The notes under the pieces: model-generated
Told to the model about the DNA's origin: nothing
The model's input: the letters and a program-made list of their open reading frames with translations, nothing else
The model's database searches: none
In this document: in pieces, positions 1-37,610 of the stretch
Layout: every line of letters begins with the position of its first letter
Position numbering within the stretch: position 1 is the first letter of the stretch
Assembly (NCBI RefSeq): GCF_035917675.1
Contig: NZ_CP109104.1
Location: 1,674,001 to 1,738,000 of the forward strand
Direction of reading: 5' to 3'
DNA: 64,000 nt
DNA from: Streptomyces sp. NBC_01775
Lineage (GTDB): Bacteria > Actinomycetota > Actinomycetes > Streptomycetales > Streptomycetaceae
Position numbers and translations under genes: made by a program

Positions 1-2
1 CG

Positions 3-8361: not shown

Positions 8362-9471
8362 TCAACTCTGGTTCGAGAGAGCCTCCAGACACTGCTGCAC
8401 GCGGCTGGGCAGCGACGTGTCGGCCGCTGCCGGTCCGCCGTCCGCAGCGAGCGCGGCCCAGGTGTGGAGCATCGCCCGACCAAGGGTGAGGAGCTGCTCC
8501 GGATCCTGGAGCATCTGCCAGTTGCCGGACGCGCGCTTCAAGTACCCGTACGCGCGGGGGTTGCCCTGCCGGTGGCAGACCCCCGCGAGTTCGAGGTAGA
8601 TCCTCGTGGAACTCGCGTAGTTGCCGCCCAGGCGGGCGACGTACGCCTCCAGGTCGCGGGTCTCCAGGGTGTAGGGGTGTTCCTCGCCGTAGCTGCGCAC
8701 GGCGTGTGCCCGCAGGCGGTAGGCGAGCACCATGGCGCGCTGCGTCTCCCCCTCGGCCGCCGCCCGGTTGATGTGCGTCACGGCCTCCTCCATTTCACCG
8801 GGGATCGTCGGCTTGGCGACGGGAGGTGCGGCGGCGGGAACGTCCGTGGCGGGAGGGGCGGTTACGGCCGGAGGGGCGGTTGCGGCCGGCCCGGGTTGCG
8901 TCGGGTGCGGGTCGGGTGCCGGAGCGGGCGCCGGGGGCTGGGGGGCAGACTCACGGGGCTCCGGCGCGACGGGGCCCGGGGCCTGCGGCGCCGGCACCAC
9001 GGGCAGCTGCGTGGTGGCGTCCGGGTCGGCCGTCCGCACCGGGTCGGCGGGTGCCGTCCGCACCGCGTCAACGGGCTCCGCCTGCACCGGGGCAGCGGGC
9101 TCCGCCAGCCCCGCGTCGGCGGGTTCCGACCGCACCGGGTCGGCGGGCGTCGCGGTCTCCGCCCCGTTGACGAGCATCTGACTCGAACCGTCGGGGGCGA
9201 CCCGGATGTGGGTCGCGTAGCCGTTCTCCCGTAGATCCAGGATGGTCGCGTCGATGGATCCGCCCCGGCCCTGCGCGGCCTGTTGCAGGGCGTCGAGTAC
9301 CGCGACATGGACCTCTCCTCCCTCAGCCACCGGGAGGAGCTCGCCGTTGAGCGCCGCGGAGCCGTTGCTGGAGATGAGGACCTCGAAGCGGGAAGGCGGC
9401 TGCGGCACTCCGTCGTCGTCATGTTGCGCGGCCTGGTGCTGGCGCGCTGGTCTGTTGGGTGTGTGGAGCAT
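8362..9471 (-). CDS. Shared-module / Pro-rich / TPR-like protein of secretion set A
   Basis: About 369 residues with no signal peptide or membrane segment, so probably cytosolic. Three parts: an N-terminal module of about 75 residues (RFEVLISSNGSAALNG to IRVAPDGSSQML); a Pro/Ala-rich linker of about 110 residues; and a C-terminal helical region of about 130 residues (EEAVTHINRAAAEGETQRA, YGEEHPYTLETRDLEAYVAR, AYGYLKRASGNW) resembling a tetratricopeptide fold. Both ends match the protein at 36327-37610 and the N-terminal module also matches the lectin at 26560-28074. I prefer ATG 9471, preceded by GGAGAG, over GTG 9489, which lacks a ribosome-binding site. It follows the transglycosylase-like gene on the same strand. 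Possibly a docking or chaperone factor. Confidence 0.72.
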   Translation of the reverse strand: MLHTPNRPARQHQAAQHDDDGVPQPPSRFEVLISSNGSAALNGELLPVAEGGEVHVAVLDALQQAAQGRGGSIDATILDLRENGYATHIRVAPDGSSQMLVNGAETATPADPVRSEPADAGLAEPAAPVQAEPVDAVRTAPADPVRTADPDATTQLPVVPAPQAPGPVAPEPRESAPQPPAPAPAPDPHPTQPGPAATAPPAVTAPPATDVPAAAPPVAKPTIPGEMEEAVTHINRAAAEGETQRAMVLAYRLRAHAVRSYGEEHPYTLETRDLEAYVARLGGNYASSTRIYLELAGVCHRQGNPRAYGYLKRASGNWQMLQDPEQLLTLGRAMLHTWAALAADGGPAAADTSLPSRVQQCLEALSNQS

Positions 9472-9521
9472 GCGGTGCTCACTCTCCACTCTGTCAGGGT
9501 CGGGACTCTGTCGGGGTCGGG

Positions 9522-10313
9522 TCAGGAGGTCTCGGTGTCGGACGGGTAGTCGGAAGGCGACGGGAATTCGGAGGGGGGCAGGGCCCCGCCGATGCCCTCG
9601 AACCGGGGGAACAGCGATCTGACGCCGAGGACGTAGCTCTGCGCCGAGCTGGTCTCGGGGACGCCCTTGGCCTTCTGTACCGCGTCAAGCCCCACGTCGT
9701 AGGCCGCGAGCGCCAGGTCGAGGACACCTTGGTCTTCCGGGGCCTGCCCGCTGTCCACGATCGGCTTGACCTTCTCGGCCAGCGAGCACAGGTATTTGCC
9801 CTGCGCCATGATCGAGTCCTCGGCGTCGGTCGCCCTGGTCTCGTCGTTGTCGTCCTTGTCCTCGCCGAACTCCTTGAACTTGTCGGGCGGCAGCTGCGAG
9901 ATGCCCTCCTCCCCGTTGTTGCCGCGCATGTCCTTGTTGAAGGAGGACTCGTGCTCGATCTGCGCCGCGATGACCACCGGACCGATGACGTCACAGACCC
10001 CGCCGGCGTCCTTGATGGTCTCCGCCAGGTCCTCGGGGACGGTCTCCTCGTCCAACTCGCCCTTCCCGTCGCCTTGGACCGACTCGGCGACCGCGTCGGA
10101 GTCGATGTCCTCGGACGAGTCCCCGCCGCCTCCGCCGCCGCCGAAGAACAGGATGAGAGCGATGATGGGGGCGAAGAGGACGCCCAGCCCGCCGAAGATG
10201 ATCAGCACGACGCCGATGCCCGCTGCCGCGGGAGGCAGTGCCAGCGACAGGCATCCGCAGCCCATCCCCGCCATCATGGCCGCGTTCCCCCCTGACCCTT
10301 CACTCTCGCTCAT
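9522..10313 (-). CDS. Membrane-anchored lytic transglycosylase-like protein of set A (VirB1-like, degenerate)
   Basis: 263 residues. A strongly hydrophobic Gly-rich segment (residues about 20-60) anchors the protein, followed by an acidic linker. The C-terminal domain (residues about 100-245) aligns with the SLT domain of the protein at 34568-35611. The glutamate of AAQIEHESSFN matches that protein's AAQIAAESGWN, and two cysteines (GVCDVI, YLCSLA) match its pair. Other lysozyme-fold signatures are eroded: GLSQFMP became GISQLPP and AAYNAGPG became AAYDVGLD. In T4SS such proteins open the cell wall for the channel. Whether this copy is still catalytic is open. ATG 10313 is preceded by a GAGGGAGAG purine run. 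Transcribed divergently from the set A core. Confidence 0.7.
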   Translation of the reverse strand: MSESEGSGGNAAMMAGMGCGCLSLALPPAAAGIGVVLIIFGGLGVLFAPIIALILFFGGGGGGGDSSEDIDSDAVAESVQGDGKGELDEETVPEDLAETIKDAGGVCDVIGPVVIAAQIEHESSFNKDMRGNNGEEGISQLPPDKFKEFGEDKDDNDETRATDAEDSIMAQGKYLCSLAEKVKPIVDSGQAPEDQGVLDLALAAYDVGLDAVQKAKGVPETSSAQSYVLGVRSLFPRFEGIGGALPPSEFPSPSDYPSDTETS

Positions 10314-10540
10314 GGGCGCACACCCTCACTCTCCCTCTCTCCTCACCGAACGACACCGAGTTGCCGGAGCGATGAACCACTTCCGCTGAAGTCCCGTTGT
10401 GGCTCTCCGACGGAACGCAACGCGCTTGCAGATCGGAACGGGCCAGAGGCCGAATCAGTTCAACTCGGTTCGATCCGGATCACGGAAGAGCGCGGCAGCA
10501 CACCAATCCATGAGTCAGCACGAGAGGAGGCAGGACGCGC
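10314..10540. promoter_or_regulatory. Divergent promoter region of secretion set A
   Basis: This 227-base gap separates the minus-strand transglycosylase/TPR pair from the plus-strand core operon, so both promoters must lie here. A motif TTCAACTCGGTTCGATC (10459-10475) has a similar counterpart (reverse complement TTGAACCAGTTCGATC, 34540-34555) in the equivalent gap of set B. I see no convincing -35/-10 pair. Confidence 0.45.
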
Positions 10541-11575
10541 ATGAGCGTCCCTCCAAGGGAGCCCGCCGGGGCGCAGATGTGGGTACGCGGGCCGACCGCG
10601 CCTCCGCCCACGGCAGCGCCGCCGGAACCGGCCACGCCGGCCGAGGCGCCGCCCGCGGCAACGCCGCCGGAGCCGGTCGCCCCGGCGGCTGCCCCGACTG
10701 CCCCGGCACCGGCCGCCGCGGCACCCTCGGCACCGGCAGCACCGGCAGCACCGGCCCCGGCCCCGGCACCGGCACCGACCGCCCCGACTGAGGTGCGGGC
10801 ACCAGCCGCACCGACTGAGGTGCGGGCGCCCGTTGCTCCGGCCGCGGTGCCGCCGGAGCAGGTTGCCCCGGCCATGGCCGCGCCTGCGGCGGCGGCTCCG
10901 GCTGCCCCTGCCCAGGTGCCGCCGGAGCCGGCCGTCCTGTTCCGGTCGTCACCGGAACCGGCCGCGCCGTTCCGGTCGTCACCGGAACCGGCTGTCCCGG
11001 CCACAGCGGCGCCGAACCCGGCCGCACCGGCCGCGAGGGCCGCAGCCGTGCCGCGCCCGGCCACCCCTGCCGCGCCGTCACCGGCCAGGGCTTCGCAGTA
11101 CCCGGAACTCGGACTGCCCCCGGCGGGGGGGCATGGCCCGGTCAGCTGGGTCGGTGCGCACGGTGGTGCGGGAACGACCACGCTCGCCGAGGTGGTGGGC
11201 GGCAGTGACCTGGGTCGCCAGTGGCCCGATCCGGCCCTGGGCGAGCCCGGCCAGGTGCTGTTGGTGGCACGGACCCACGGCACCGGCCTGCGGGCGGCGT
11301 CCCGGGCGCTGGACGCCCTGCGCTCGGGGCAGCACCCGGCGGGTGTGGAACTGCTGGCCGTGGTCCTCGTCGCCGACGCGCCCGGGCACCTGCCCTTCCA
11401 GCTTCTCCAGCGAGTCCGTGTGCTGCGTTCCGTCGCGGAAGTGCACCGGGTCCCCTGGGTTCCTGCGTGGCGCGGGGAAAAGCGGTCGGGCGCTGTGCCG
11501 AAGGCCGTTCGCGTACTGGTCGAGTTGGCCGGCACCCAACCCGACAAGCCTGGAAAGCGGGAGAGAAAACGATGA
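10541..11575 (+). CDS. DUF6668-like protein with atypical P-loop, set A
   Basis: 344 residues. Residues 1-185 are a Pro/Ala-rich repeat region (PPEPA, APA, SSPEPA units). The C-terminal 150 residues form a compact domain starting VSWVGAHGGAGTTTLAEV, a ParA/CpaE-like P-loop in which the usual lysine (GKT) is replaced by Thr. It continues with VLLVARTHGTGLRAASRAL and VVLVADAPGHLP. The domain matches 33830-34438. Such lysine-less P-loops occur in CpaE/TadZ-type localisation proteins. A polar-localisation or assembly role is an inference. ATG 10541 follows AGGAGG by 10 bases. First gene of the set A core; the stop overlaps the next start (ATGA). Confidence 0.75.
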   Translation: MSVPPREPAGAQMWVRGPTAPPPTAAPPEPATPAEAPPAATPPEPVAPAAAPTAPAPAAAAPSAPAAPAAPAPAPAPAPTAPTEVRAPAAPTEVRAPVAPAAVPPEQVAPAMAAPAAAAPAAPAQVPPEPAVLFRSSPEPAAPFRSSPEPAVPATAAPNPAAPAARAAAVPRPATPAAPSPARASQYPELGLPPAGGHGPVSWVGAHGGAGTTTLAEVVGGSDLGRQWPDPALGEPGQVLLVARTHGTGLRAASRALDALRSGQHPAGVELLAVVLVADAPGHLPFQLLQRVRVLRSVAEVHRVPWVPAWRGEKRSGAVPKAVRVLVELAGTQPDKPGKRERKR

Positions 11576-11868
11576 CTGTCATGAGCCAACTACCGCAGCT
11601 CCTGGCTGACGATATCCCTCCCTACCAGCCGTCGGGGGAAGCAGCCGAGCAAGCCAACAACCTTATCAATTGGCTTGCCTGGGGTGCCTCGGCGGCCGGC
11701 GTGCTCGGCCTCATCATCGTCGGCGCCAACATGACCCTCCAGTTGCGGGCCGGAGAACCGGGCGAAGGCGCCACGCACTACCGGGGTTTCTTCATCGTGA
11801 TGGTCGCATCGGTCATCGCTACATCCGCCGGACCGATCGTGGAGTGGTTCGGCCCATACACCCCCTGA
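11572..11868 (+). CDS. Small two-helix membrane protein, VirB2/TrbC pilin-like (set A, copy 1)
   Basis: 98 residues. Two hydrophobic helices (about residues 30-52 and 70-90) are joined by a short polar loop carrying LRAGEPGEGATHYRG. Size, topology and position at the head of a T4SS-like operon match pilin/VirB2-like subunits, which are too divergent to identify by sequence alone. No cleavable signal peptide is evident, but the 25-residue hydrophilic N-terminus could be a leader. ATG 11572 overlaps the preceding stop. It resembles the next gene in topology (NxxxWLAWGASAAGVLG versus GLAAWAGTAAGVLG). Confidence 0.7.
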   Translation: MTVMSQLPQLLADDIPPYQPSGEAAEQANNLINWLAWGASAAGVLGLIIVGANMTLQLRAGEPGEGATHYRGFFIVMVASVIATSAGPIVEWFGPYTP

Positions 11869-11942
11869 ATCTCTGTCGCCTGTTCCGGGACAGCATTTCG
11901 CAAAATCACTTGCCAGTTGACAACGAGTCATAGGAGTTTTCG

Positions 11943-12230
11943 ATGAAGAGTGCCCTTCTCCACCTCTACCTGTCCGCTCCAGCCGCCGTTCCGAAGCCGC
12001 AGCGTAAAGCACCGGACGGGCTCAAGGACAAGGTTGACCTGATGCTCGGTCTGGCCGCCTGGGCCGGTACCGCGGCCGGCGTCCTGGGCATTGTGATCAC
12101 CGGCGCGATGATGGGTATTTCTCTGAAGCGTGGCGAAAGCTCCGAACACATGAGCCGACTCGGCATGGTGCTGGGTGGCTGCTGCATCGTCGCCAGCGCG
12201 GGTCCCTTTGCCTCCTGGGTCTTCAAGTGA
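11943..12230 (+). CDS. Small two-helix membrane protein, VirB2/TrbC pilin-like (set A, copy 2)
   Basis: 95 residues, with two hydrophobic segments (about residues 33-55 and 70-92) separated by a polar loop (SLKRGESSEHMS). It is a diverged tandem relative of the preceding gene: AAGVLGIVITGAMMG aligns with AAGVLGLIIVGANMT. TAGGAG 5 bases before ATG 11943 supports the start. The 74-base gap before it holds no gene. Two consecutive pilin-like genes are present in set A but only one in set B. Confidence 0.7.
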   Translation: MKSALLHLYLSAPAAVPKPQRKAPDGLKDKVDLMLGLAAWAGTAAGVLGIVITGAMMGISLKRGESSEHMSRLGMVLGGCCIVASAGPFASWVFK

Positions 12231-12268
12231 CCGGGCCCGCTGACGCATCGAGGCGGAAATGAGTAGCG

Positions 12269-13108
12269 ATGTTCGGACGCAAGAAGGACGTATACGAGGC
12301 GGACGATTCGCCTTTCTATAAGCAGCGGAGCTGGATCTTCTCAGCCGTGTTCCTGGCGACCGCACTGGTCGTCGCGACACTGTCCTACGCGACAAGTTCG
12401 GGCGGCGACACCGCTGATGCCGCACCGCAGCGAAGGACCATGAAGGGACCGCTCTCCACCCACGATTCGAAGCGTGGCGGTCTGGCGGACGACGAGCGGC
12501 CGAAGGGATGCCAGACCGAGGACGAGGACGCGAAGAACACCGAGAACACGGAGAACACGCAGAACACCCAGAACGGGCAGGACCCGGAGAACGGGGCGGA
12601 CACGAGGCGGCCCACAGCCGCGCCGAAGGACGTCGCGTGGAAGAGCCTGAACGGCGCCAGCGTGCCCACCTCCCCGTCGGCCGGACCCACGCGGTACAAC
12701 GGCCCGGTGTGGTGGTGCTTCGCCCGCACACCCATGGGCTCCGTCATGGCGGCCCACAGCATCCTCACGCATATGGGAACTGCCCAATGGCGCCCTGTCG
12801 CAGAACAGCAGCTCGTCAACGGGGAGGGCCGCGACACCTTCATCGCCGGGCGGTCCAAACTCGCTGCGTCGGATGTGGAGAACCAGGACCCCGGGGTCTA
12901 CTCGGGATTCACCGTGGATTCATTCTCGAAGAACGCTGCCAACGTGCGGATCCTCATCAAGGGGGCAGGCGGGGGCTTGGGTTCGACGACGGTTTCCATG
13001 CGGTGGAGCGGCGGCGACTGGAAAGTGAAGCCGCGCCCGAACGGAACCCTCTTCTCCTCGTCCTCCGGCATGGGCGCGAACGGGTTCATCAGATGGGGGG
13101 CGGCCTGA
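12269..13108 (+). CDS. Single-pass anchored protein in VirB8-like position, set A
   Basis: 279 residues. A short basic cytosolic N-terminus is followed by one membrane helix (residues about 22-42), an Asn/Thr/Glu-rich linker with repeated N-T-E and N-T-Q units (about residues 88-105), and an extracytoplasmic domain. That domain (VWWCFARTPMGSVMAAHSIL, GRDTFIAGRSKLA, SMRWSGGDWKV) is homologous to the one at 32663-33478. The topology matches VirB8/TcpC, but I cannot assert the VirB8 fold from sequence. It precedes the VirB6-like gene by one base, so coupling is likely. Confidence 0.65.
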   Translation: MFGRKKDVYEADDSPFYKQRSWIFSAVFLATALVVATLSYATSSGGDTADAAPQRRTMKGPLSTHDSKRGGLADDERPKGCQTEDEDAKNTENTENTQNTQNGQDPENGADTRRPTAAPKDVAWKSLNGASVPTSPSAGPTRYNGPVWWCFARTPMGSVMAAHSILTHMGTAQWRPVAEQQLVNGEGRDTFIAGRSKLAASDVENQDPGVYSGFTVDSFSKNAANVRILIKGAGGGLGSTTVSMRWSGGDWKVKPRPNGTLFSSSSGMGANGFIRWGAA

Positions 13109-13109
13109 C

Positions 13110-14429
13110 ATGAACTGTAGCGATTCAGGAAGTCCGCTGATTGATGCCCTGGTAGGTTTCTTCAAATTCCTGGGCGACCCGATCGGCAGCATCATCAAGG
13201 GCATCGCCGACCTCATCATGGCTGGGGCCCTTGCCGCGTTCGGTGCACTCACAGAGGGCATCCCCACCTTCGCGCCGACGGAGTCGAAGCCGGTCCAGGG
13301 CCAGTTGAACTGGCTTGTTGTCTACACCGCCGTAGGCTCGCTCATCTTCGCCTGTATCCGGATGGCAACGGAGCGAAAGGGCGACGCGGGAACGACCGCG
13401 ATGAAGGGCATGGTTCGGCTCATCCTCGTCGCCGGTGGCAGCACGGCCATCATCACCGCCGCTGCCGCTGTCGGCGACGACTTCGCCAGTCATCTGTACG
13501 AGAGCGCTGTGAAAAAGCAGCTGGAGACCGTGGGTTGCGGCTCCTCGAAAGACATTCCGGCGTTCCTGTACCTGATCCTCGCGTTCCTCTTGCTCCTTGC
13601 CGCCGTCGTGCACGGGATCATGCTCTACATCCGGCTCGCCGTCATGATCGTGCTGTTCGGAACCCTGCCGCTGGCGGCTGCCGCGTCCATGAGCGATTGG
13701 GGCGGCGGATGGTGGCGCAAGCACATCGGCTGGATGATCGCCTGGCTGCTCTACAAACCCGCTGCCGCGCTCGTCATATTCGCGGGAACGACCCTGCTCA
13801 CAGACGGCGACAGAGAGGGCGGCGGCGGGGGGCAGGTTGACAAGATCCACCTCAAGATCGCCGGTATTTGCGTGATGCTCCTGTCCGCCGTGGCCATGCC
13901 CGCACTGCTGAAGCTCATCGTGCCCGCCACGGCGGCGCTCGGGGGCGGGAGCGCCCAGTCCGCGGCCTTCTCGGCTGTCGGGGGCGGACTTGCCACCGGA
14001 GCGAGGGCGATAGCCGGCTCCACCGGATCGTCCGGCGGGGGCGGCAAGTCCGGGTCCGGCGGAGCATCCGGCCCATCCGGCGCCTCGGGCAGCGGAGGCC
14101 AGTCCGGAGCGGGAGGCAGGAGCGGCGCGACAGGACTCTCCAGCGACAGCTCGGGCGGCGGCTCGGGAGGCGGCTCCGGCGGAGGCTCGGGCGGCGGCTC
14201 CGGCGGCGGCTCGGGAGGCGGCTCCGGCGGCGGCGGAGGCGGCTTCGGCGGCGGAGGCGGAGGCGGCCGGGGCGGCGGAGGCCCCAGCGGTGCCACAGCA
14301 GGAAAGGGCGCCGCCGCAGGGCCGGCCGGGATCGCGGCGGAGGCCGCGATCGCCATCGCCACGGGCGCGGCGAAGACCGTGTCCGGAGCGGTGGACGACG
14401 CCGACGGGTCCAAGGGCCACAACCAGTAG
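13110..14429 (+). CDS. VirB6/TrbL-like polytopic channel protein, set A
   Basis: 439 residues. At least six hydrophobic stretches lie between residues 25 and 280, including FLYLILAFLLLLAAVVHGIM and IRLAVMIVLFGTLPLAAAAS. The segment WWRKHIGWMIAWLLYKPAAA is typical of the conserved cytosolic loop in actinobacterial TrbL-like proteins and recurs at 31347-32663 as WFRKSVGWLLAFVLYKPTAA. Residues about 300-400 are Gly/Ser-rich (GGGSGGGS units) and probably cytosolic and disordered. In T4SS this family forms the inner channel with VirB8. ATG 13110 starts one base after the preceding stop. Confidence 0.8.
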   Translation: MNCSDSGSPLIDALVGFFKFLGDPIGSIIKGIADLIMAGALAAFGALTEGIPTFAPTESKPVQGQLNWLVVYTAVGSLIFACIRMATERKGDAGTTAMKGMVRLILVAGGSTAIITAAAAVGDDFASHLYESAVKKQLETVGCGSSKDIPAFLYLILAFLLLLAAVVHGIMLYIRLAVMIVLFGTLPLAAAASMSDWGGGWWRKHIGWMIAWLLYKPAAALVIFAGTTLLTDGDREGGGGGQVDKIHLKIAGICVMLLSAVAMPALLKLIVPATAALGGGSAQSAAFSAVGGGLATGARAIAGSTGSSGGGGKSGSGGASGPSGASGSGGQSGAGGRSGATGLSSDSSGGGSGGGSGGGSGGGSGGGSGGGSGGGGGGFGGGGGGGRGGGGPSGATAGKGAAAGPAGIAAEAAIAIATGAAKTVSGAVDDADGSKGHNQ

Positions 14430-14472
14430 CGCGAACAGCCGTGCCGCGCGGTCCCCCGCGGTCTGTACACAT

Positions 14473-14498
14473 GGCCGCCCCTCAGCTGAGGGGCGGCC
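14473..14498. other. 26-bp perfect palindrome between virB6-like and virB4-N-like genes
   Basis: The half-site GGCCGCCCCTCAG is followed at once by its reverse complement (14473-14498), giving a very stable 13-bp hairpin with no free loop bases. It lies in the only sizeable gap (92 bases) in the second half of the set A operon, with no T tract after it. It may be a partial terminator, an mRNA-stabilising hairpin or a protein site. Confidence 0.6.
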
Positions 14499-14521
14499 GA
14501 ACAGGGAAGGAAGCCATACCC

Positions 14522-16015
14522 ATGTCAACCCATGCCGCGTCGAGTCCCACGTATGGGAACTGGCGCCGGCCGAGGCGGCCGGGGCTGGGCCCCTTCGGCA
14601 TGATCGGCACCGCCGTCATGTTCGGCGGACTCGTCGTGACGCTGCTGGCCTCACTGATCTCGGTCACCGCCGCGCTGGTCGTGCTGGGCCCCCTGGCCCT
14701 CGCACTCGTACCGCTGATGCTCCGGACTCAGGACGGGCGCAACGCCTTCCAGTTGATCGCCGTGCGCATCGGCTGGGCCCGCCGTAAGGCCAAGGGCTCG
14801 ACCACCTACGTCGCGGGACCGATGTCGCAGCGGCCCGCCGGGCGGTTCCAGCCGCCCGGGCTGCTCGGCCGGATGCAGATGTCCGAGGGCAGGGACGCGT
14901 ACGACCGTGACTTCGGCGTGCTGTTCCACCGCAGCCGCAACTTCTACACCATCGTGCTGGGCTGCGAACCCGACGGCGGTTCCCTGGTCGACCCGGACCA
15001 GGTGGACAACTGGGTCGCCTCGTGGGGCGGATGGCTGGCCAGGCTCTCGCACGAAACGGGGCTCCGCGGCGCCTCCGTCATCGTCGAGACGGCGCCCGAC
15101 TCGGGCACCCGGCTCGCGAACGAGGTCCTGCCGCGCCTCTCCCCCGACGCTCCGCCCGCAGCTCGTGCCGTGATGGAGGAGGTCGTCGAGAAGTATCCGT
15201 CGGCCTCCTCCGAGATGCACACGTACATCACGCTCACCTACGGCCTCCCCCCGGCGCAGAAGCTCAAGGAGGAGGAGCTCATCACCGAACTCGCCACCCG
15301 CATCCCGGGACTGCTCTCCGGGCTGGTCGGCGCGGGCGGCGGAGTCGCCTACCCGCTGTCGGCCGAGCGCATCGCCGAGGTCGTACGGGTGGCCTACGAC
15401 CCCGCCGTCGCGGGTGAGGTCCTCAACGCCCGTGCGCAGTACGGCGGCACGGGGCTGGAGTGGGGCGATGCCGGTCCGGCCGCCTGCGTGGAGGATGTCA
15501 CCTCCTACCAGCACGATTCCGGGGTCTCGCGGACCTGGATGCTCACCCTCGCGCCCCGCGGCACCGTACGGGCCAACGTGCTGCGCGGCCTGCTGGAGGC
15601 TTCGCCCGGCACCCGTCGTAAGCGCGTGGCACTGCTCTACCGGCCCATCGACCCCGCGACCTCGGCCCGCATCGTGGAGGCCGACCGGCGGGCGGCCCAG
15701 TTCATGGCCACCTCCGGACGCGGCATGGTCCAGGCACGGGCCGCCTCCGAGATGCGCGCGACCGAGCAGACGGCACAGGAGGAGGCGACCGGTGCCGGAC
15801 TGGTGGAGTTCTCGCTGATGCTCACCGCCACCGTCGACGCCGACGACGAACTGGCCGATGTCAGCGCGGCCATGCGCAACCTCCAGGGAGCGGCACGGCT
15901 GTCGATGCGCCCGGCCGACCGGATGCAGGCGGCGGCCTTCAGCTGCACCCTCCCCGTCGGAATTCTCCCGTGGGAGCTCACACTGATCCCGCGCGATCTC
16001 CGGGAGGCGCTGTGA
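14522..16015 (+). CDS. SCO6880-like protein: PrgI-type membrane domain fused to a VirB4 N-terminal-like domain, set A
   Basis: 497 residues. After TYGNWRRPRRPG, two membrane helices (residues about 20-65) resemble the small PrgI/TcpE component. The rest is soluble and ends with LMLTATVDADDELADVSAAM and MQAAAFSCTLPVGILPW, which reads like the end of the CagE/TrbE/VirB N-terminal domain just before the VirB4 ATPase core. The next gene begins at that point, overlapping by four bases (GTGA). I therefore read the pair as a split VirB4. The match to a family named SCO6880 is from memory. ATG 14522 is preceded by GGAAGGAAG. Homologous to 29861-31360. Confidence 0.78.
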   Translation: MSTHAASSPTYGNWRRPRRPGLGPFGMIGTAVMFGGLVVTLLASLISVTAALVVLGPLALALVPLMLRTQDGRNAFQLIAVRIGWARRKAKGSTTYVAGPMSQRPAGRFQPPGLLGRMQMSEGRDAYDRDFGVLFHRSRNFYTIVLGCEPDGGSLVDPDQVDNWVASWGGWLARLSHETGLRGASVIVETAPDSGTRLANEVLPRLSPDAPPAARAVMEEVVEKYPSASSEMHTYITLTYGLPPAQKLKEEELITELATRIPGLLSGLVGAGGGVAYPLSAERIAEVVRVAYDPAVAGEVLNARAQYGGTGLEWGDAGPAACVEDVTSYQHDSGVSRTWMLTLAPRGTVRANVLRGLLEASPGTRRKRVALLYRPIDPATSARIVEADRRAAQFMATSGRGMVQARAASEMRATEQTAQEEATGAGLVEFSLMLTATVDADDELADVSAAMRNLQGAARLSMRPADRMQAAAFSCTLPVGILPWELTLIPRDLREAL

Positions 16016-19463: not shown

Positions 19464-19470
19464 CCTGCCC

Positions 19471-19502
19471 GGGTGGCCCGGCTGAGCCAAGCCGGGCCAC
19501 CC
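19471..19502. terminator. Terminator hairpin of the set A operon
   Basis: GGGTGGCCCGGCT (19471-19483) pairs perfectly with AGCCGGGCCACCC (19490-19502) around a 6-base loop. It starts 8 bases after the stop of the coupling-protein gene. There is no T tract, as is common in Streptomyces. It may also serve the convergent DUF418 gene. Confidence 0.75.
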
Positions 19503-22213: not shown

Positions 22214-22266
22214 CAGCAAGAAGGACATTGAAGTACCAGTGGCAATAGGCATGGCATGACATGCGG

Positions 22267-22301
22267 CTGTCCGGCGGTTCTGAAGCCCCACCGCCGGACA
22301 G
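22267..22301. terminator. Terminator hairpin after the Ser-rich repeat gene
   Basis: CTGTCCGGCGG (22267-22277) pairs perfectly with CCGCCGGACAG (22291-22301) around a 13-base loop, 54 bases after the stop of the Ser-rich gene and before the regulator. No T tract. Confidence 0.65.
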
Positions 22302-22410
22302 TCCCCACTGCGTCCCGGCCGGTGAACAGGACGCCGCCCGCGGGTTACCGGCGCATCACAAATGGCTGAGAGCGGTTCCGGATCGTTCACACGTCGGTAG
22401 AGTCGCACGC

Positions 22411-26491: not shown

Positions 26492-26513
26492 CCTGAGCCG
26501 CTGCGGGCTCAGG
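26492..26513 (-). terminator. Likely terminator downstream of the lectin gene
   Basis: CCTGAGCC (26492-26499) and GGCTCAGG (26506-26513) form an 8-bp perfect stem with a 6-base loop, 47 bases beyond the stop of the lectin gene. The rest of 26350-26559 would hold the promoter of the Gln/Pro-rich gene. I see no other feature there. Confidence 0.5.
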
Positions 26514-26559
26514 ACTGACGCCGTCTCAGAGCTGACGCCGGCTCAAGGCCGGTGCCCGT

Positions 26560-28074: not shown

Positions 28075-28337
28075 ATGAACCCACTTCCTGACGTTCGCTT
28101 GCAAGGAACTCACAAGTCGAAACGGCCACTTGGGCGGATCGGTTCAGACCCGGCCCGAGTGCCCGGCATCCACCGCGCACGCTGAGGTCCGGGCCCGGCC
28201 GCCAATCGGGTGGTGGGTGGTGGCCGGGCCCGGTTTCTCGAAGGCCGCCGTGGGGGGGGAACGACCTCGTGTCCCTCTCTACGGCGCGAGCGGCGGGACG
28301 GTTCAGTCCACCGCTGCCGCACCTCGCGCGACCTGGC

Positions 28338-29846: not shown

Positions 29847-29860
29847 CGGGTCCTCCAGAG

Positions 29861-31360: not shown

Positions 31361-32663
31361 GGGATTCCCTCTGCTGGTCATCGTTGTATCGGTGAGTCGT
31401 TGGCGTGGAGGAGATCAGCTCCTCATCAGGGGGGCCTTCGGATTCCGGCTGCTCCTCGGAGCGGTCCCGCACGGCCACCGGAGGCGCTTGCCGGGCGCGC
31501 TCGTTGACGGTGGCCGCTGTGTACTCGCCGCCCGTGGCCGTGGTCGGCCCCCCGGAACCGGGCGCGGACCGGCCCCCTCTGCCCGCGGTGCTGTGCGCAC
31601 CGGTGGCGTCGGTCCGTCCTCCGACCACGGTGGCCCCGGAGACCGATCGGCCGGCGGCGAGACCGCGCAGATGCGGAACGGTCTGCGCGCCGGTGGCCAC
31701 GGTCTGGCCGCCGCTGCCGGCACCGGACTTGGCGCCGCGCCCCATCCCCGAGAGCGTCGTCTGCGCGACGGGGGCCGCGAGCCGTAGCAGCGCGGGCAGG
31801 GTGAAGCAGGCCAGCACCAGCAGGACGACACCGGAGACCATGGAGATGATCTCGTTGCCCTCTCCGCCTTGTTCCTGGCCGCCGGTCATCGAGAAGGCTG
31901 CCGCGTACACGATCGCGGCGGTCGGCTTGTAGAGCACGAAGGCCAGCAGCCAGCCCACGGACTTGCGGAACCAGGCCCGGCCGGCCGGGGTGGCGCTCGC
32001 CGCGGCGGACAGCGGGAGCGTGCCGGCGAGGATCACCAGCATGGCCACCCGGACGATCATGAGGGCGATCTGGGCCAGGCTGGCGCAGATCACCAGCAGA
32101 GACATGATCAGGACCAGGAACGAGGAATCCGCGTCCCCGAGGGAGAGCATGGCCGAGACGCGGTTGTCGAACTCGGTCACACACTGCTGGACCGGCTGGC
32201 CGTCCGGGCTGATCTGCTTGCAGCCCATGGACCTGTCGATGATCCAGACGCTGAACTTGTCCCCCGCCACGGTCAGCAGATTGACGGCGGCCACCCCGGC
32301 CGAGGAGACGACGATCAGGTTCAGCAGGCCTTGCAGGGCCTGCCTGCCGGGTTCGCTGCGGCGCTGCCAGGCGATGTGCCCGGCCGCGATGAGCAGGCAC
32401 AGCACGGCGGTGAACGAGGTGAACCACAAGGTGGAGCCGTGCAGGAACGCCGCAGGCCCGGTGTCGTAGCTGAGGTCGGGGGACTTGATGTCCGTCCACG
32501 CGCTGCCGAGCGCCTTGACGGTGGAGCCCGCCGCCTTGGCGGCGCTGTCCACGATGTTGTCGAACGCGCTGTCGCCGAGGTCCTTCGGGCCCGTGCCCTC
32601 CCCCTCGCCCACGCAGTAGCCGCCCACGGTGGGGCGCACAAAGCCGAAGTCGCAGCCCGCCAT
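31347..32663 (-). CDS. VirB6/TrbL-like polytopic channel protein, set B
   Basis: 438 residues. Hydrophobic segments include WFTSFTAVLCLLIAAGHIAW, LNLIVVSSAGVAAVNLL, SSFLVLIMSLLVICASLAQI, VAMLVILAGTLPLSAAAS and VSGVVLLVLACFTLPALL. The WFRKSVGWLLAFVLYKPTAA segment matches the set A copy. The C-terminal 130 residues are a polar Gly/Thr/Ala-rich tail, shorter and less glycine-pure than in set A. ATG 32663 overlaps the upstream stop (TGATG). The extracytoplasmic N-terminal part has several cysteines (GCDFGF, GGYCVGEG, MGCKQ, QQCVTE). Confidence 0.8.
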   Translation of the reverse strand: MAGCDFGFVRPTVGGYCVGEGEGTGPKDLGDSAFDNIVDSAAKAAGSTVKALGSAWTDIKSPDLSYDTGPAAFLHGSTLWFTSFTAVLCLLIAAGHIAWQRRSEPGRQALQGLLNLIVVSSAGVAAVNLLTVAGDKFSVWIIDRSMGCKQISPDGQPVQQCVTEFDNRVSAMLSLGDADSSFLVLIMSLLVICASLAQIALMIVRVAMLVILAGTLPLSAAASATPAGRAWFRKSVGWLLAFVLYKPTAAIVYAAAFSMTGGQEQGGEGNEIISMVSGVVLLVLACFTLPALLRLAAPVAQTTLSGMGRGAKSGAGSGGQTVATGAQTVPHLRGLAAGRSVSGATVVGGRTDATGAHSTAGRGGRSAPGSGGPTTATGGEYTAATVNERARQAPPVAVRDRSEEQPESEGPPDEELISSTPTTHRYNDDQQRESRGSD

Positions 32664-33478
32664 CACACACCACCCCAGCTGACGTATCCGGCGAGGGAGT
32701 CGACCGCGGTGGGCGCCGTCGGGTCGGCCGGGTACTCCAGCCGCCAGTCCCCGTCCTTCCACAGCACCGTCGTCGTCGCGGCCTGCATCCGGCCGTCCGG
32801 GAACCGCCACACTGTCTGGATCACCGCCGTGCTGCTGGTGTACGTGACGAACTTGAAGCCGGCGATCTGCCCCTGTCCCGCGCCGTCCTGGGACTTGGGG
32901 TCCGCCGTGCTCTCCGACTTGGTCCGTGCGGCGATGTAGGACTTCCGGCCCGCGCCGACGGTCTGAGCACGCGTCACCTTCAGCCAGTCGTCGGCGGCCA
33001 GGTACCGCACGCTGATCTGGCTGGTCGCCAGCAGGGCGCCGACGGGGGTGTGCGCGTAACAGCGCGCGACGTCCTCGTCCATCACGGCCGGGCCCGCGGC
33101 CTTCGACGCGGGAAGGGCGACGGTGTGGAACAGCTTCCAGCCCACGCCCTTGGGCGCCGCGGTGGGCACGTCCCTTTGCCGGTCCGCCAGTCGGGGACAT
33201 GACGCGCCGCCGCCGTCCGTGGACACCGACGGCGGCGATTCCGTGGCGCCATCGCCCGGCTGCGGTGTCCCCGTCTCCGACGCCGAGGCGGCGGTGGAGC
33301 CGTCACCCCGGCCGGAGGAGTCGGAGGTGAAGAGGACCACCGACCCGATGACGACTACGAAGCCGATGAACGCGGCTGCGAGGACGAAGCCGCTCCGCAG
33401 CCACGGGCTGCGCGGCTCGTCGGTGCCTGCGCGGTCCGCGGGCTCTGCCATGTCCCTCCCCATCCCTGAGATCCGCAT
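32663..33478 (-). CDS. Single-pass anchored protein in VirB8-like position, set B
   Basis: 271 residues: one N-terminal membrane helix (FVLAAAFIGFVVVIGSVVLF, residues about 30-50), a Ser/Thr/Pro/Gly-rich linker, then a domain homologous to 12269-13108 (VARCYAHTPVGALLATSQIS, GRKSYIAARTKSES, TTTVLWKDGDWRLEY). Topology and place before the VirB6-like gene suggest a VirB8/TcpC-like channel part; the fold is unproven. ATG 33478 has GGGAG five bases upstream; ATG 33451 with GGGGAGGG is an alternative start. Confidence 0.65.
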   Translation of the reverse strand: MRISGMGRDMAEPADRAGTDEPRSPWLRSGFVLAAAFIGFVVVIGSVVLFTSDSSGRGDGSTAASASETGTPQPGDGATESPPSVSTDGGGASCPRLADRQRDVPTAAPKGVGWKLFHTVALPASKAAGPAVMDEDVARCYAHTPVGALLATSQISVRYLAADDWLKVTRAQTVGAGRKSYIAARTKSESTADPKSQDGAGQGQIAGFKFVTYTSSTAVIQTVWRFPDGRMQAATTTVLWKDGDWRLEYPADPTAPTAVDSLAGYVSWGGV

Positions 33479-33508
33479 GTGCTCTCCCAGCTAATTACTG
33501 ACGCGCCG

Positions 33509-33817
33509 TCAGACCAGCGCGCCGACGACGCCGGAGGCGGAGCCGACGAGCACGCATGCCCCCAGCACCAGGCCCAGCCCCTTGACGTGCTCGCGACCGC
33601 CGCCCTTCGAGTGGTCGACGGCCATGCGCGCGGCGACGCCGAAGATGCCCGCGACACACAGCGCGGTGACGGTCCAGGCCACCCACTTGAGCACCGTCAC
33701 CAGGCCGTCGGCTCCGGGCGGCGCCGCGCCGCCGCCGACGTCCGGAGGGCCGGAGGGGGCCGCGAGGTAGGTGAGGTGATGCGAGGCGTCCGAGACGGCC
33801 GCCAACAGACTGGACAT
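33509..33817 (-). CDS. Small two-helix membrane protein, pilin-like, set B
   Basis: 102 residues. A 40-residue Gly/Pro-rich N-terminus is followed by two hydrophobic helices (VLKWVAWTVTALCVAGIFGV and LGLVLGACVLVGSASGVVGA) with a polar loop (MAVDHSKGGGREHVK). Topology and place match the two set A pilin-like proteins; sequence identity is low. GGGGAAAA precedes ATG 33817. It lies 12 bases after the DUF6668-like stop. Confidence 0.68.
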   Translation of the reverse strand: MSSLLAAVSDASHHLTYLAAPSGPPDVGGGAAPPGADGLVTVLKWVAWTVTALCVAGIFGVAARMAVDHSKGGGREHVKGLGLVLGACVLVGSASGVVGALV

Positions 33818-33829
33818 GCGGTTTTCCCC

Positions 33830-34438
33830 TTACGCGGGTCGGATGAGTCGGGTCAGGTCGCGCGCCAGTGACGCGCATTCCTTGGGCGGATCCGCCGTGG
33901 GCGGATCTCCGAGCCGCCACGGCTCCACCCACGGGATCTCCCACAGCCGGGGCACGGCGCCGGACACGAGGTTCACCAGGTCCCGCAGGACCCGGGGGCG
34001 GCGCCCGGGAGCGTCGGCGACGACGACCAGCCCGAGCAGTTCGACGCCGGTGACCATCTGCGAGGCCCACTGCCCCGCGGCGTTCTGCACGGCCTTGAGG
34101 CCGCTCGCGCTCGAGCGCGCGACGAGCACCACCGGCTGCGGAACATCGGACGCGGGCCAGGCGCGGCCCGCGTCCCGGCCGCCGGGCACCGCCTGCTCCA
34201 GCGTGGTGACCCCGGCGCCGCCGTGGACGCCCAGCCACCACCACCCGGTACCCGCGGCCGGCTGCGGCGCGGCGACGGGCAACACGTTCGCGGGCCGCGG
34301 CACCCCGGCCTGGGGTGCCGCTGGACCGGTCAGCGCCTTCAACACGTCCTGAACCGATCGCTGCGGCTCCCCGTTGTTGCCCTCCGAAGGGCGGGTCGGC
34401 GACAGCCAGGGGTTGGGAGCCGGCGCATCCCCGGCCAT
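33830..34438 (-). CDS. DUF6668-like protein with atypical P-loop, set B
   Basis: 202 residues, homologous to the C-terminal domain of 10541-11575: WWWLGVHGGAGVTTLEQAV, VVLVARSSASGLKAVQNAAG, LGLVVVADAPGRRPRVLRDL, WEIPWVEPWRLG. Again the P-loop lysine is replaced (GVTT). It lacks the long Pro/Ala region of the set A copy, having only a 60-residue polar lead. ATG 34438 follows AAGGGAG by 5 bases; the longer open frame to 34555 crosses the promoter gap. First gene of the set B core. Confidence 0.76.
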   Translation of the reverse strand: MAGDAPAPNPWLSPTRPSEGNNGEPQRSVQDVLKALTGPAAPQAGVPRPANVLPVAAPQPAAGTGWWWLGVHGGAGVTTLEQAVPGGRDAGRAWPASDVPQPVVLVARSSASGLKAVQNAAGQWASQMVTGVELLGLVVVADAPGRRPRVLRDLVNLVSGAVPRLWEIPWVEPWRLGDPPTADPPKECASLARDLTRLIRPA

Positions 34439-34567
34439 GGCATCTCCCTTCGACTCGAGCTCAGCGCCACGAATCACTACATAAATTGACAAAAATTTCC
34501 AAGCACAGGTTTCGACTACGAGCCCTCTTACGGACTCTCGATCGAACTGGTTCAAGGGGGGTTGCAG
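34439..34567. promoter_or_regulatory. Divergent promoter region of secretion set B
   Basis: A 129-base gap between the minus-strand core and the plus-strand hydrolase operon. It has an unusually AT-rich block (34476-34500) with TTGACA and the small dyad AAATT-N6-AATTT. The GATCGAACTGGTTCAA motif (34540-34555) resembles one in the set A promoter gap. AAGGGGGG (34555-34562) is the ribosome-binding site of the hydrolase gene. Confidence 0.5.
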
Positions 34568-35611
34568 ATGACCACGGCCACGGTGAGATGGGCGGGGGGT
34601 GTCATCGCTGTACTACTCGCCCTGCTGGTCGGCCTGACCGTGGTGGCGGCGGCCGACGAGGAGGAAACCGGCACTCCCGTGGGGCTCGTCAACGGGGCGC
34701 TCGACATCAAGAGCATTCCGCCGGAGTACGCGGAGTGGGTCGAGCGCGCCGGCAAGGAGTGCAAAGAGGTCAGCGCGCCGCTGGTCGCCGCGCAGATCGC
34801 GGCCGAGTCCGGCTGGAATCCCAAGGCGGAGAGTCCCGTCGGGGCCCAGGGGCTGAGCCAGTTCATGCCCGGCACGTGGAAGACGTGGGGGGTGGACGCG
34901 GCGGGCAAGGACGGCAGTGCCGAACCTGACGGCACAGCCGACCCGTTCACCCCGGGCGACGCCATCATGACCCAGGCCCGCTACGACTGCTGGCTCGCGG
35001 GCAAGGTCAAGGAGATGGGGTTGAAGGACGACCCCACGCGGCTGCTGCTCGCCGCCTACAACGCGGGTCCCGGCGCGATCGAGCAATTCGGCGGCGTGCC
35101 CCTGTACCCGGAGACGCAGAGCTACGTCACGAAGATCATCGCTTCGATGGCCGAGTACTCCGGCGGCGGCGCGGGCGGCAAGATCGAGAAGGGCGGACCG
35201 TTCGGCGACCGGGTGGTGGCCTACGCCAAGAAGTGGCTCGGCACCCCCTACGCGTGGGGCGGCGGTGGTCCGGAAGGTCCCGGGCGGGGCTTCGCGCAGG
35301 GCGCGAACACGGTCGGCTTCGACTGCTCCAGCCTGGTCCAGTACGCGGTCTACCGCGCGAGCGACGGCAAGACGATGCCGCCCCGCACCTCCCAGGTCCA
35401 GGTCACGGCGGGCAAGCCGGTATCCCGTGACGAGATGCAGCCGGGCGACGTGATCGGATTCGCCCTGCACGGCAGCTACGACCACATCGGCATCTACCTC
35501 GGAAACGGGCAGTTCATCCACGCGCCGAAGACCGGCGACGTGGTCAAGATCAGCCAACTCGACGACAGCTACTACGCCAGCAAGCCCCAGAAGGTGAGGC
35601 GGTTCGGATGA
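34568..35611 (+). CDS. Bifunctional cell-wall hydrolase: SLT transglycosylase plus NlpC/P60, set B
   Basis: 347 residues. An N-terminal membrane anchor (residues about 8-30) is followed by an SLT lysozyme-fold domain (about 50-185; catalytic Glu in AAQIAAESGWN, then GLSQFMPGTWKTWG and AAYNAGPGAIEQFG). A Gly-rich hinge leads to an NlpC/P60 endopeptidase domain (about 215-347; catalytic Cys in FDCSSLVQYA near 256, His in YDHIGIYLG near 306). It would cut both glycan strands and stem peptides so the secretion channel can cross the wall, as VirB1/TcpG-type proteins do. ATG 34568, with AAGGGGGG six bases upstream, is preferred to TTG 34562. It overlaps the lipoprotein gene (ATGA). Confidence 0.9.
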   Translation: MTTATVRWAGGVIAVLLALLVGLTVVAAADEEETGTPVGLVNGALDIKSIPPEYAEWVERAGKECKEVSAPLVAAQIAAESGWNPKAESPVGAQGLSQFMPGTWKTWGVDAAGKDGSAEPDGTADPFTPGDAIMTQARYDCWLAGKVKEMGLKDDPTRLLLAAYNAGPGAIEQFGGVPLYPETQSYVTKIIASMAEYSGGGAGGKIEKGGPFGDRVVAYAKKWLGTPYAWGGGGPEGPGRGFAQGANTVGFDCSSLVQYAVYRASDGKTMPPRTSQVQVTAGKPVSRDEMQPGDVIGFALHGSYDHIGIYLGNGQFIHAPKTGDVVKISQLDDSYYASKPQKVRRFG

Positions 35612-36297
35612 CTGCTCATGGTTCGCGCGCCACGACCGTGAGGACGTTCGCACTCGCGCTCACACTCACACTCGCCGTAGCCGGCTGCGGTGGCGGCGGG
35701 GACGACGGCGACGGCGGTGGCAAGGCGCGCGCGGACGCGTCCGCCTCGTCCGGGACTTCCTCCCCCGCCCCCGAAACCGGCACCGGAAAGCCCTCGTCCC
35801 CGCCCGCTCCCAGCACAACCGCCCCCTCGCCCAGCAGTTCCGGGGGCACCCCCAAGGGGGGCATCCCAAAGCCCGGTGACGTCGACCAGGGCGACGCCGA
35901 CGCGGTCGGCGAGGGGACGCTCAAGGCGATGTGGACGTCCGACACCACCATCGACAGCGGCCCGCAGGACGCCACTGTGCGCACAGCGGACGCGGGGTGG
36001 CTGAGTGAGAAGTACGAGAAGCAACTGCGCGGGCACCGCTCCCGTTCGGCTCCCGGCGCCCAGTGGGAGAAGTGGACACACCACCGTGCCTACACCAAGG
36101 TCGAGGTGGCGAAGACCGAGGACGCGGCAAGGCCGGACGACACCGACACCGAGGCCTGGCGGCAGTGGACCGTCACCACCACCCCGCACGGCCGGGATGG
36201 CTGGAAGCCCAAGCCCACCACTGTCGCGGCGTACGTGCAGCTCGTCCGGTCGGCTCCCGACGCGGATTGGCGGGTCGCCGGCGTTACTGTGCAATAG
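35608..36297 (+). CDS. Secreted lipoprotein of set B
   Basis: 229 residues with a lipoprotein signal (FALALTLTLAVAGC; lipidated Cys near residue 28) and a disordered Ser/Pro/Gly linker to about residue 95. The C-terminal domain (GEGTLKAMWTSDTTIDSG, DAGWLSEKYEKQLRGHRSRS, TTVAAYVQLVRSAPDADWRV) has the size and pattern of an NTF2-like/VirB8-type fold, but I cannot confirm this. ATG 35608 overlaps the hydrolase stop, so the two are co-translated. Set A has no counterpart. Likely sits on the outer face of the membrane beside the hydrolase. Confidence 0.8.
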   Translation: MTAHGSRATTVRTFALALTLTLAVAGCGGGGDDGDGGGKARADASASSGTSSPAPETGTGKPSSPPAPSTTAPSPSSSGGTPKGGIPKPGDVDQGDADAVGEGTLKAMWTSDTTIDSGPQDATVRTADAGWLSEKYEKQLRGHRSRSAPGAQWEKWTHHRAYTKVEVAKTEDAARPDDTDTEAWRQWTVTTTPHGRDGWKPKPTTVAAYVQLVRSAPDADWRVAGVTVQ

Positions 36298-36326
36298 CCA
36301 GGCGAGTCTCACCCGAAGGGAGTTCC

Positions 36327-37610
36327 ATGCCCACCACGTACGAACCCTCTGAGGTACCCGCCTGGCCGGTGTACTCCTTCGACGTCCAGCACAGCGGCCG
36401 GGTGGCCGTCTCCGGCCCGCTCCTTCCCGCGTCCGAGCACCCCACCCGCGCCTCGGCCATCGAGGACGTCGTCGCCGCGGCCGTCAGGCTGGGCCGGCCG
36501 GTGCGGGCCGCGGCCACCGAGCCGGACGGCACCGTGTGGCAGCTGGTCATCTCGCCCGACGGGTCGGTGGGCGAGATGTCCGGCGGCCCGCAGCGCGGCA
36601 AGTCACAGCGCGGCAAGTCACCGAAGAAGCGCAACGCCCATACGCCCAGCCGCGCTCCCGCACCCGGCCGCCCCCAAGTCCCCGGCCGCACACAGGACAT
36701 GGGAGCCGCCCAGAGTCCGGGCGCGGCCGTCCAGCACCCGGGCGCCGCCGTCCAGAACACCGGCGGCGCTGTCCAGCACCCGGCCGCACAGCCGGCACCC
36801 ACGCCCGACCCGGCGCCGGAACCGGCCCCGGCCGCCGCACCGGCACCGGCACCCGCACCCGCACCCGCACCCGCACCCGCACCCGACCCAGTCCTGGCAG
36901 CCCCTCCCGAACCAGCCCCGGCGCCCGCTCCCGAACCAGCCCTGGCCGCTGCTCCCGTACCCACGCCCGCACCCGACCCGGCCCCGGCCGCCGCCCCCGT
37001 ACCCACGCCAGCACCCGAACCCACTCCCCACCCGGCCCTGGCCGCCGTTCTCTCCCCCGCACCCGCTCCCGCTCCCGACCCTGCCCCTGCCCCTGCCCCT
37101 GCCCCTGCCCCTCAGCAGAGCTTGCCGGAGGCTCCCAGCTCCCTCGCCGAGGCTGTGTCCCGCCTCGACACACACGCCGCGGCGGGCCGTATGGACCAGG
37201 CCGTCGCCCTCGCCGTAAAGCTGGATGAGCAAGCCGCCGGCGCGCTGGGCCTGTCCCACCCCGACGCCCTGCGCGTCCGCGAGGCGCGGGCACGCATCGC
37301 CGGACTGGCCGGAGACCCCGTCGGCGGAGTGCGGCTGTACCGCGATGTCGCCGAGCGCTGGCACTATCAGGGGGCCTCCGAAGAGGCCGAGTCGGTAGCG
37401 GGCCGCGCCCACGCGCTGTGGCTTGAGATCTCCGACCTGGAGACGGCGGTGTCCGCCGGGGTCGCCATGGTGCGGATGCGCAACCAGATACCGGGCGAGG
37501 GCGGCAGCGCGTTCGCCGCCGTCCTGGATTACCAGACCCAGCTCGAAGCAGCCCGGGACGCCGCCGGCCGTGCCCACCCATCCCCTCAGCAGCACCTCAC
37601 ACCGATGTAG
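36327..37610 (+). CDS. Shared-module / Pro-rich / TPR-like protein of secretion set B
   Basis: 427 residues, the partner of 8362-9471. The N-terminal module (YSFDVQHSGRVAVSG to LVISPDGSVGEM, residues about 12-85) is followed by a Pro/Ala-rich linker of about 170 residues with long P-A-P-A-P runs. The C-terminal helical region (LAEAVSRLDTHAAAGRMDQA, GLSHPDALRVREARARIAG, GGVRLYRDVAERWHYQG) resembles TPR repeats. No membrane segment or signal. ATG 36327 follows GAAGGGAG. Third gene of a plus-strand operon with the wall hydrolase and lipoprotein, as its homologue pairs with the set A transglycosylase-like gene. The role is unknown; a docking factor is plausible. Confidence 0.72.
   Translation: MPTTYEPSEVPAWPVYSFDVQHSGRVAVSGPLLPASEHPTRASAIEDVVAAAVRLGRPVRAAATEPDGTVWQLVISPDGSVGEMSGGPQRGKSQRGKSPKKRNAHTPSRAPAPGRPQVPGRTQDMGAAQSPGAAVQHPGAAVQNTGGAVQHPAAQPAPTPDPAPEPAPAAAPAPAPAPAPAPAPAPDPVLAAPPEPAPAPAPEPALAAAPVPTPAPDPAPAAAPVPTPAPEPTPHPALAAVLSPAPAPAPDPAPAPAPAPAPQQSLPEAPSSLAEAVSRLDTHAAAGRMDQAVALAVKLDEQAAGALGLSHPDALRVREARARIAGLAGDPVGGVRLYRDVAERWHYQGASEEAESVAGRAHALWLEISDLETAVSAGVAMVRMRNQIPGEGGSAFAAVLDYQTQLEAARDAAGRAHPSPQQHLTPM

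Follow-up and report, generated by a model that had tools for sequence, protein, structure and literature searches.

Two type IV secretion system (T4SS)-like gene sets lie close together in Streptomyces sp. NBC_01775, and they raise the question of whether such a locus transfers DNA, exports proteins or serves the development of its own host. The sets occupy part of a 64,000-nucleotide window, the whole stretch of DNA analysed here, which covers 1.674-1.738 Mb of the 9.06 Mb contig NZ_CP109104.1; the host genome (G000) comprises two contigs and 9.34 Mb. The answer favoured here, at close to an even chance, is that the locus is a chromosomal T4SS apparatus without a linked relaxase, in which sets A and B form one unit and the single VirD4-type coupling protein stays with A. 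On this reading the locus offers a testable case in Streptomyces: a double T4SS that is old and co-inherited, lacks a linked relaxase, shares one coupling protein and has candidate substrates nearby.

Open reading frames (ORFs) of the window and their translations were scanned against Pfam and NCBIfam, and paralogues were compared by blastp. Set A (8362-19463) and set B (28338-37610) have opposite orientations and are separated by genes for a DUF418 protein, the Ser-rich protein rep1, an AfsR/SARP regulator, the Gln/Pro-rich protein rep2 and a lectin protein. An earlier note on this DNA described two mirror-image sets; the opposite orientation and the paralogous cores bear this out, but B is not a full copy of A, since it has no VirD4 gene and the lectin gene follows its VirB4 gene instead. 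A has two pilin-like genes and B one, and B has as extras a small gene and an NlpC/P60 domain on its SLT protein that is absent from the SLT protein of A. A sigma factor gene outside the range covered by that note accompanies paired loci and many A loci. The features are as follows.

7456-7908 (larger ORF 7456-8283), minus strand: ECF-type sigma factor (Pfam Sigma70_r2 1.1e-14, plus r4); adjoins the A-TPR gene in paired and many A loci elsewhere
8362-9471, minus strand: A-TPR protein, with N-domain, Pro-rich linker and TPR-like end (TPR_12 0.0038, weak, below cut-off)
9522-10313, minus strand: SLT transglycosylase of A, VirB1-like (PF01464 4.8e-9); one hydrophobic segment
10541-11575, plus strand: DUF6668 protein of A (PF20373 3.7e-11), with the degenerate P-loop-like motif GAHGGAGTTT
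11572-11868, plus strand: pilin-like protein 1 of A; two hydrophobic segments, orthologues in other loci
11943-12230, plus strand: pilin-like protein 2 of A; two hydrophobic segments, orthologues in other loci
12269-13108, plus strand: VirB8-position protein of A; one hydrophobic segment, no Pfam match, homologue of a B protein modelled as NTF2-like
13110-14429, plus strand: VirB6-like polytopic membrane protein of A; seven hydrophobic segments, 28% identical to its B homologue
14522-16015, plus strand: SCO6880-family protein of A (NF042935 2.5e-154), predicted detached N-terminal half of VirB4, the fold having been predicted on the B homologue
16012-17595, plus strand: VirB4-like motor (ATPase half) of A; Walker A GMPGLGKS, VirB4 model 2.9e-9, below curated cut-off
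17592-19463, plus strand: VirD4-like coupling protein, the sole one in the locus (TraG-D_C 2.6e-32, T4SS-DNA_transf 1.7e-21)
19547-20716, minus strand: DUF418 membrane protein (PF04235 9.1e-36); often adjoins VirD4 in A loci
20948-22213, plus strand: rep1, Ser-rich near-orphan and candidate substrate; hydrophobic segment and basic tail, C20 net charge +4
22261-25317, plus strand: AfsR/SARP-type regulator with BTAD (5.9e-45), NB-ARC and TPR; related genes present at many A and A+B loci
25366-26349, minus strand: rep2, Gln/Pro-rich orphan and candidate substrate; basic tail, C20 net charge +5
26560-28113, minus strand: lectin protein, with N-domain, hydrophobic segment and ricin-B lectin (RicinB_lectin_2 2.8e-19)
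28338-29846, minus strand: VirB4-like motor of B, with no VirD4 after it; Walker A GRPGLGKS
29861-31360, minus strand: SCO6880-family protein of B, predicted N-terminal half of VirB4
31347-32663, minus strand: VirB6-like polytopic membrane protein of B; six hydrophobic segments
32663-33478, minus strand: VirB8-position protein of B, putatively NTF2-like by model and fold search
33509-33817, minus strand: pilin-like protein of B; two hydrophobic segments
33830-34438, minus strand: DUF6668 protein of B (PF20373 5.8e-10)
34568-35611, plus strand: SLT + NlpC/P60 cell-wall hydrolase of B (PF00877 5.6e-24, PF01464 1.3e-12)
35608-36297, plus strand: small protein of B, kept across B loci; no Pfam match, lipoprotein-like as a guess from its start
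36327-37610, plus strand: B-TPR protein, with N-domain, Pro-rich linker and TPR-like end; no Pfam match, 32% identical to A-TPR over 110 amino acids

The two cores are old relatives. Blastp identities between A and B are 54% over 451 amino acids for the VirB4-like motor, 42% over 491 for the SCO6880-family protein, 40% over 95 for DUF6668, 33% over 172 for SLT, 32% over 88 for the pilin, 30% over 175 for the VirB8-position protein and 28% over 229 for the VirB6-like protein; paralogues 28-54% identical rule out an assembly artefact, which the earlier note had also dismissed, or a recent duplication. A tree of VirB4 (58 rows, from matches of at least 380 aligned residues in sampled loci, a subset of the surveyed genomes) places all A sequences in one clade (31 rows, 100/99) and all B sequences in another (15 rows, 99/97), and the A/B split is older than the separation of the sampled species of the genus. 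The paired genomes co-cluster in both clades: the four with inward-facing pairs group together in each, as do the six with outward-facing pairs, with the B-only G153 among their B rows. The A+B pair appears to have been inherited together, and an old origin, one of the options in the earlier note, is upheld.

Pairing is also apparent in distribution. When 392 genomes of the genus were searched with the A motor (E <= 1e-110, with A and B assigned from the listed identities), 50 gave matches; A is present in 43 (42 at >= 80%, one at 69%) and B in 14 (52-57%), with distant B-like copies in three more (49-51%). Among B loci with a species name are those of S. smyrnaeus, S. qinglanensis, S. luteolifulvus and S. 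aurantiacus. Ten genomes have both, versus 1.5 expected under independence (hypergeometric P 7e-8, kinship ignored), and the two sets are linked in all ten: they lie within 20 kb in 7/7 single-contig pairs, and the B-TPR-sigma-A-TPR junction is seen in the three from broken assemblies. A class-wide draw of 393 genomes yielded 47 matches at E <= 1e-90, of which one outside the genus reaches 80% (G468), and no genome outside the genus in this draw has both types. G100 has a second B-type core (C1:1332001-1352000, L077) in addition to its A+B pair, so that three cores go with only one VirD4 match (E <= 1e-20).

The arrangement of the pair is more variable than its presence. Cores that point at a shared centre, as described in the earlier note, occur here and in three related genomes (G131, G083 and G292), which form one species clade with the host by rpoB (30 genomes compared; 94-99% nucleotide identity), but the other A+B genomes are outward-facing. 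Outward order is found in G100, G373 and G236 and implied in G030, G212 and G368, excluding mirror order as a general rule; G100 is the sister of the inward four by rpoB, and the remaining outward pairs are scattered. The outward junction also occurs in L156 (recorded as Kitasatospora aureofaciens). Simple circular permutation of one element was not adopted as an explanation, since the order of the afsR and lectin genes differs too.

Set B stands out by the coupling protein it lacks. VirD4 was not found for B in the Pfam scan of window proteins or in the comparison of B loci, where it follows VirB4 in 0/14 of the closest loci (L160, which ends 45 bases on, is uninformative), and in six of the ten genomes with both sets the VirD4 search gave one match only (E <= 1e-20). 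In contrast, VirD4 and DUF4913 directly follow VirB4 in 8/8 stand-alone relatives of B (from S. fildesensis, Streptomyces sp. PH10-H1, two Cryobacterium, Curtobacterium, two Clavibacter and Acaricomes). DUF4913 is also near VirD4 in many A loci, and is absent from the window and from G131. The coupling protein of A may itself come from a separate lineage, judging by sequence identity: the VirD4s nearest to it outside these loci are 49-64% identical, with a MOBP relaxase 10-26 kb away in G000, G131, G140 and G368, versus 38% for the B-type VirD4s of G140 and G224.

Relaxase genes are missing from the neighbourhood of both sets, in line with the earlier note. No PF03432 match lies near A or B in 29 genomes, including all ten paired, and no PF08751 match in 16, five of them paired. 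Two control relaxases and MobC likewise matched neither the window nor the other A, B and paired stretches searched. The control relaxases do match two more distant T4SS loci (L067 and L069; genomes G150 and G094), and in 3/8 stand-alone relatives (L164, L165 and L168) a relaxase and a MobC-type gene lie downstream of VirD4, as indicated by PF03432 in L168 and by tblastn homologues in L164 and L165. A relaxase beside every stand-alone relative, which was also considered, is not borne out, and this slightly lowers the odds of the exporter reading and slightly raises those of DNA transfer in trans. All relaxases found by these whole-genome searches either sit on a different contig from A and B or are separated from them by about 170 kb or more, though in fragmented assemblies a different contig is no proof of distance. 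No tyrosine integrase (PF00589) occurs within 50 kb in eight genomes, as far as contigs reach and with serine recombinases left unsearched; the nearest in the host is about 290 kb away. With synteny conserved and no relaxase nearby as far as tested, the earlier suggestion that the locus may be a secretion system instead of a conjugative element is partly supported; B is incomplete, and protein secretion is an inference.

The machinery itself is recognisable to varying degrees. Profile searches identify the VirD4 of A, but with VirB4 models both motors score only 1e-5 to 1e-9, which falls short of the curated cut-offs, and the top match of the motor in the PDB, VirB4 (4ag5), is weak (0.024). 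The predicted fold of the B SCO6880 copy matches the N-terminal half of R388 VirB4 in a fold search, while a sequence search of the PDB with SCO6880 gave no matches. The SCO6880 family is thus likely to represent the N-terminal half of VirB4, and VirB4 is predicted to be split in both sets. Each set has a VirB1-type wall hydrolase with an SLT domain, and the VirB6-like proteins, with six to seven hydrophobic segments, have no family match in Pfam scans. The GAHGGAGTTT motif in the DUF6668 protein of A (10541-11575) is presumably a degenerate ParA/MinD-like P-loop with its lysine missing.

Several accessory proteins accompany the cores. The A-TPR, lectin and B-TPR proteins have a common N-terminal domain (hhalign 100% for A-TPR/lectin, 93.6% for A-TPR/B-TPR and 95.9% for the third pairing). 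In the lectin protein this domain is followed by a hydrophobic segment and then by an outer domain that varies between loci: ricin-B in the window (Pfam), G131, G083 and G100 (by similarity), and ChW in G124 (Pfam; ChW 8.8e-11 in L056), G009 and G090 (by similarity). A protein combining thaumatin and glycosyl hydrolase (PF11790) domains occurs near some loci (G083, G100, G124 and G009; e.g. L043:5049-6626 and L163:11525 onward) and is a possible glucan-directed partner.

Candidate substrates are encoded between the cores. The genes that the earlier note placed in the shared centre are present, but two of them, for the low-complexity proteins rep1 and rep2, are near-orphans: a protein search (7992 candidates sharing most words scored) found for rep1 a 99% copy and one relative at 42% (S. 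axinellae), tblastn added a weak 27% match in L156, and rep2 has no homologue besides itself in the protein database search. The same slot in other genomes encodes different disordered-looking proteins, of which those of G292, G083 and L154 share 42-50% along nearly the whole protein and are therefore likely to come from genuine genes. T4SS substrates are marked by basic C-terminal tails. In an exploratory, hand-picked set, the net charge of the last 20 residues (C20) is at least +3 in 12/13 slot proteins versus 15% of 935 called locus genes, a background that may include slot genes.

These components can be assembled into a domesticated exporter, a proposal held at just under even probability, in which the sigma factor and AfsR govern expression, the VirD4 of A supplies both cores with proteins and a lectin/ChW protein engages a surface. 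The system would originate from conjugative (MOBP-type) elements, and each core would combine pilins and membrane proteins of VirB6 and VirB8 type with a wall hydrolase and a VirB4 split into a membrane-attached SCO6880 half and a separate motor. The sigma factor and AfsR-type regulator would turn the machine on, the hydrolases would open the wall and the membrane would receive cores A and B. A target surface would be gripped by the anchored lectin/ChW protein, which has its inner domain in common with both TPR proteins, and VirD4 would supply the channels with unfolded basic-tailed island proteins (rep1, rep2 and those at the same position in other genomes). Export, the identity of the exported proteins, their target and the use of A's VirD4 by B are all inferred. 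A more specific version, in which a single VirD4 serves both diverged channels, or else a mixed channel of A and B parts, and a monoderm mycelial bacterium thereby exports intrinsically disordered, basic-tailed proteins to targets set by the swappable lectin/ChW protein, is possible but on balance doubtful.

A number of points weigh against the exporter. The relaxase negative stops at the families searched, with MOBQ, MOBH, MOBC and MOBT not among them, and a Mob_Pre search matched no control and is hence uninformative. L164 is nearly a copy of L165. With the two control relaxases, the searched stretches of the remaining five stand-alone relatives (L166, L167, L169, L170 and L172) yielded no match, nor did those of the VirD4-bearing B loci of G140, G224, G366 and G252. 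The relaxase link is thus not universal among relatives, and relaxase loss need not mark paired loci. The VirD4 threshold misses distant members (e.g. one at 6.13 Mb of the host), many assemblies are fragmented, and the VirB6 and VirB8 labels are based on topology, position and common fold. Neither rep1 nor rep2 has a recognisable domain in a Pfam scan, and L156a (-2) is the exception among the 13 slot proteins, which were hand-picked in an exploratory analysis, from 15 loci and others viewed before them, after several tails had been seen; slot ORFs such as one of 910 amino acids in L163 and one of 391 in L158 were left out of the count.

Among the alternatives, a developmental membrane machine resembling CmdA-F (SCO4126-4131), acting in the host's own chromosome segregation or sporulation with no export, is improbable though not negligible. 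CmdB is VirB4-like, located in the membrane and required for normal sporulation, and SCO6878, SCO6880 and SCO6881 resemble cmdB, cmdC and cmdD, according to the available text of the Streptomyces coelicolor study (PMC2782261). However, A occurs in only 43/392 genomes, unlike a core developmental function, and both the exchange of lectin and ChW domains and the orphan genes of the slot point away from the cell. Null mutants of SCO6878 and SCO6881 had no sporulation phenotype (unpublished data cited in the available part of PMC2782261), a result that speaks against this alternative and is also unhelpful to the exporter. A 24% match at C1:4983825 may, by sequence, be the host's own cmdB.

Two neighbouring exporters with their own substrates, of which B works without a coupling protein, have a similarly small share of the probability. 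B has no following VirD4 in resolvable pairs, and in 4/14 B genomes A was not matched; of these, G140 and G224 carry a VirD4 of their own, and in G253 no VirD4 of this kind adjoins B. Against such independence, the co-occurrence and linkage of A and B suggest dependence, and the B-only G153 is a 91% complete assembly of 810 contigs with a 69% VirD4 fragment, so that A may be present there unseen.

Mobilisation of DNA in trans, using relaxases encoded elsewhere on a plasmid or an integrative and conjugative element (ICE), is rather unlikely. It gains some plausibility from the host's TrwC and MOBP relaxases on C2 and its MOBP relaxase at C1:8.79 Mb, and from the proximity of the VirD4s nearest to A's to MOBP relaxases in four genomes. 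However, both searched relaxase families are absent from 8/16 A- or B-bearing genomes, and the relaxase that lies beside VirD4 in some stand-alone relatives is not found in A or paired loci. A decayed integrated conjugative plasmid or ICE, already disfavoured and very improbable, would account for the conjugative ancestry, the near-orphan genes and the missing relaxase and B-type VirD4, but the core ORFs of the window are open and recur in the same order across many species, the missing parts are also missing in relatives, the pairing is old and no tyrosine integrase turned up within 50 kb in the eight genomes checked, to the extent of their contigs.

Elsewhere in the host are three further SCO6880-type T4SS loci, at C1:8812001-8832000 (L075), C1:6122001-6142000 (L074) and C2:90001-125000 (L072 and L073). 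Respiratory nitrate reductase-like genes lie to the left of the locus (window 1-5150), and those flanking genes that were tested have no counterpart next to the loci of G131 and G083.

No account of a paired A+B system was found in full-text searches, judged by titles and abstract openings. The accessible part of a review (PMC12857230) presents Streptomyces conjugation as TraB-based and treats dedicated Gram-positive exporters as an open question. CmdABCDEF and SCO6871-6884 of S. coelicolor are among the closest known systems; they are chromosomal and have a VirB4-like ATPase with SCO6880-like neighbours, but the available text mentions neither a pairing of cores nor a lectin protein or a slot for cargo (PMC2782261). 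The 89K T4SS of Streptococcus suis is a monoderm T4SS reported to export a protein effector; 89K sits on a pathogenicity island, with no twin core mentioned in the section available (PMC12857230). The SCO6880 family structurally resembles EccE, an ESX (type VII) component, but no further ESX component occurs among the scanned locus proteins; an alignment with ESX-3 (6umm, root-mean-square deviation 14.6) was not used. The stand-alone relatives of B in S. fildesensis and Microbacteriaceae have the same order of DUF6668, (pilin), VirB8, VirB6, SCO6880 and VirB4 followed by VirD4 and DUF4913; all eight keep VirD4, and three have a MOBP relaxase with MobC, whereas the window has two cores, no relaxase and no B-type VirD4. 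VirB4 of R388 (TrwK) is a single protein, whereas the predicted N-terminal half and the motor are encoded here by separate genes, the former with a hydrophobic start of its own.

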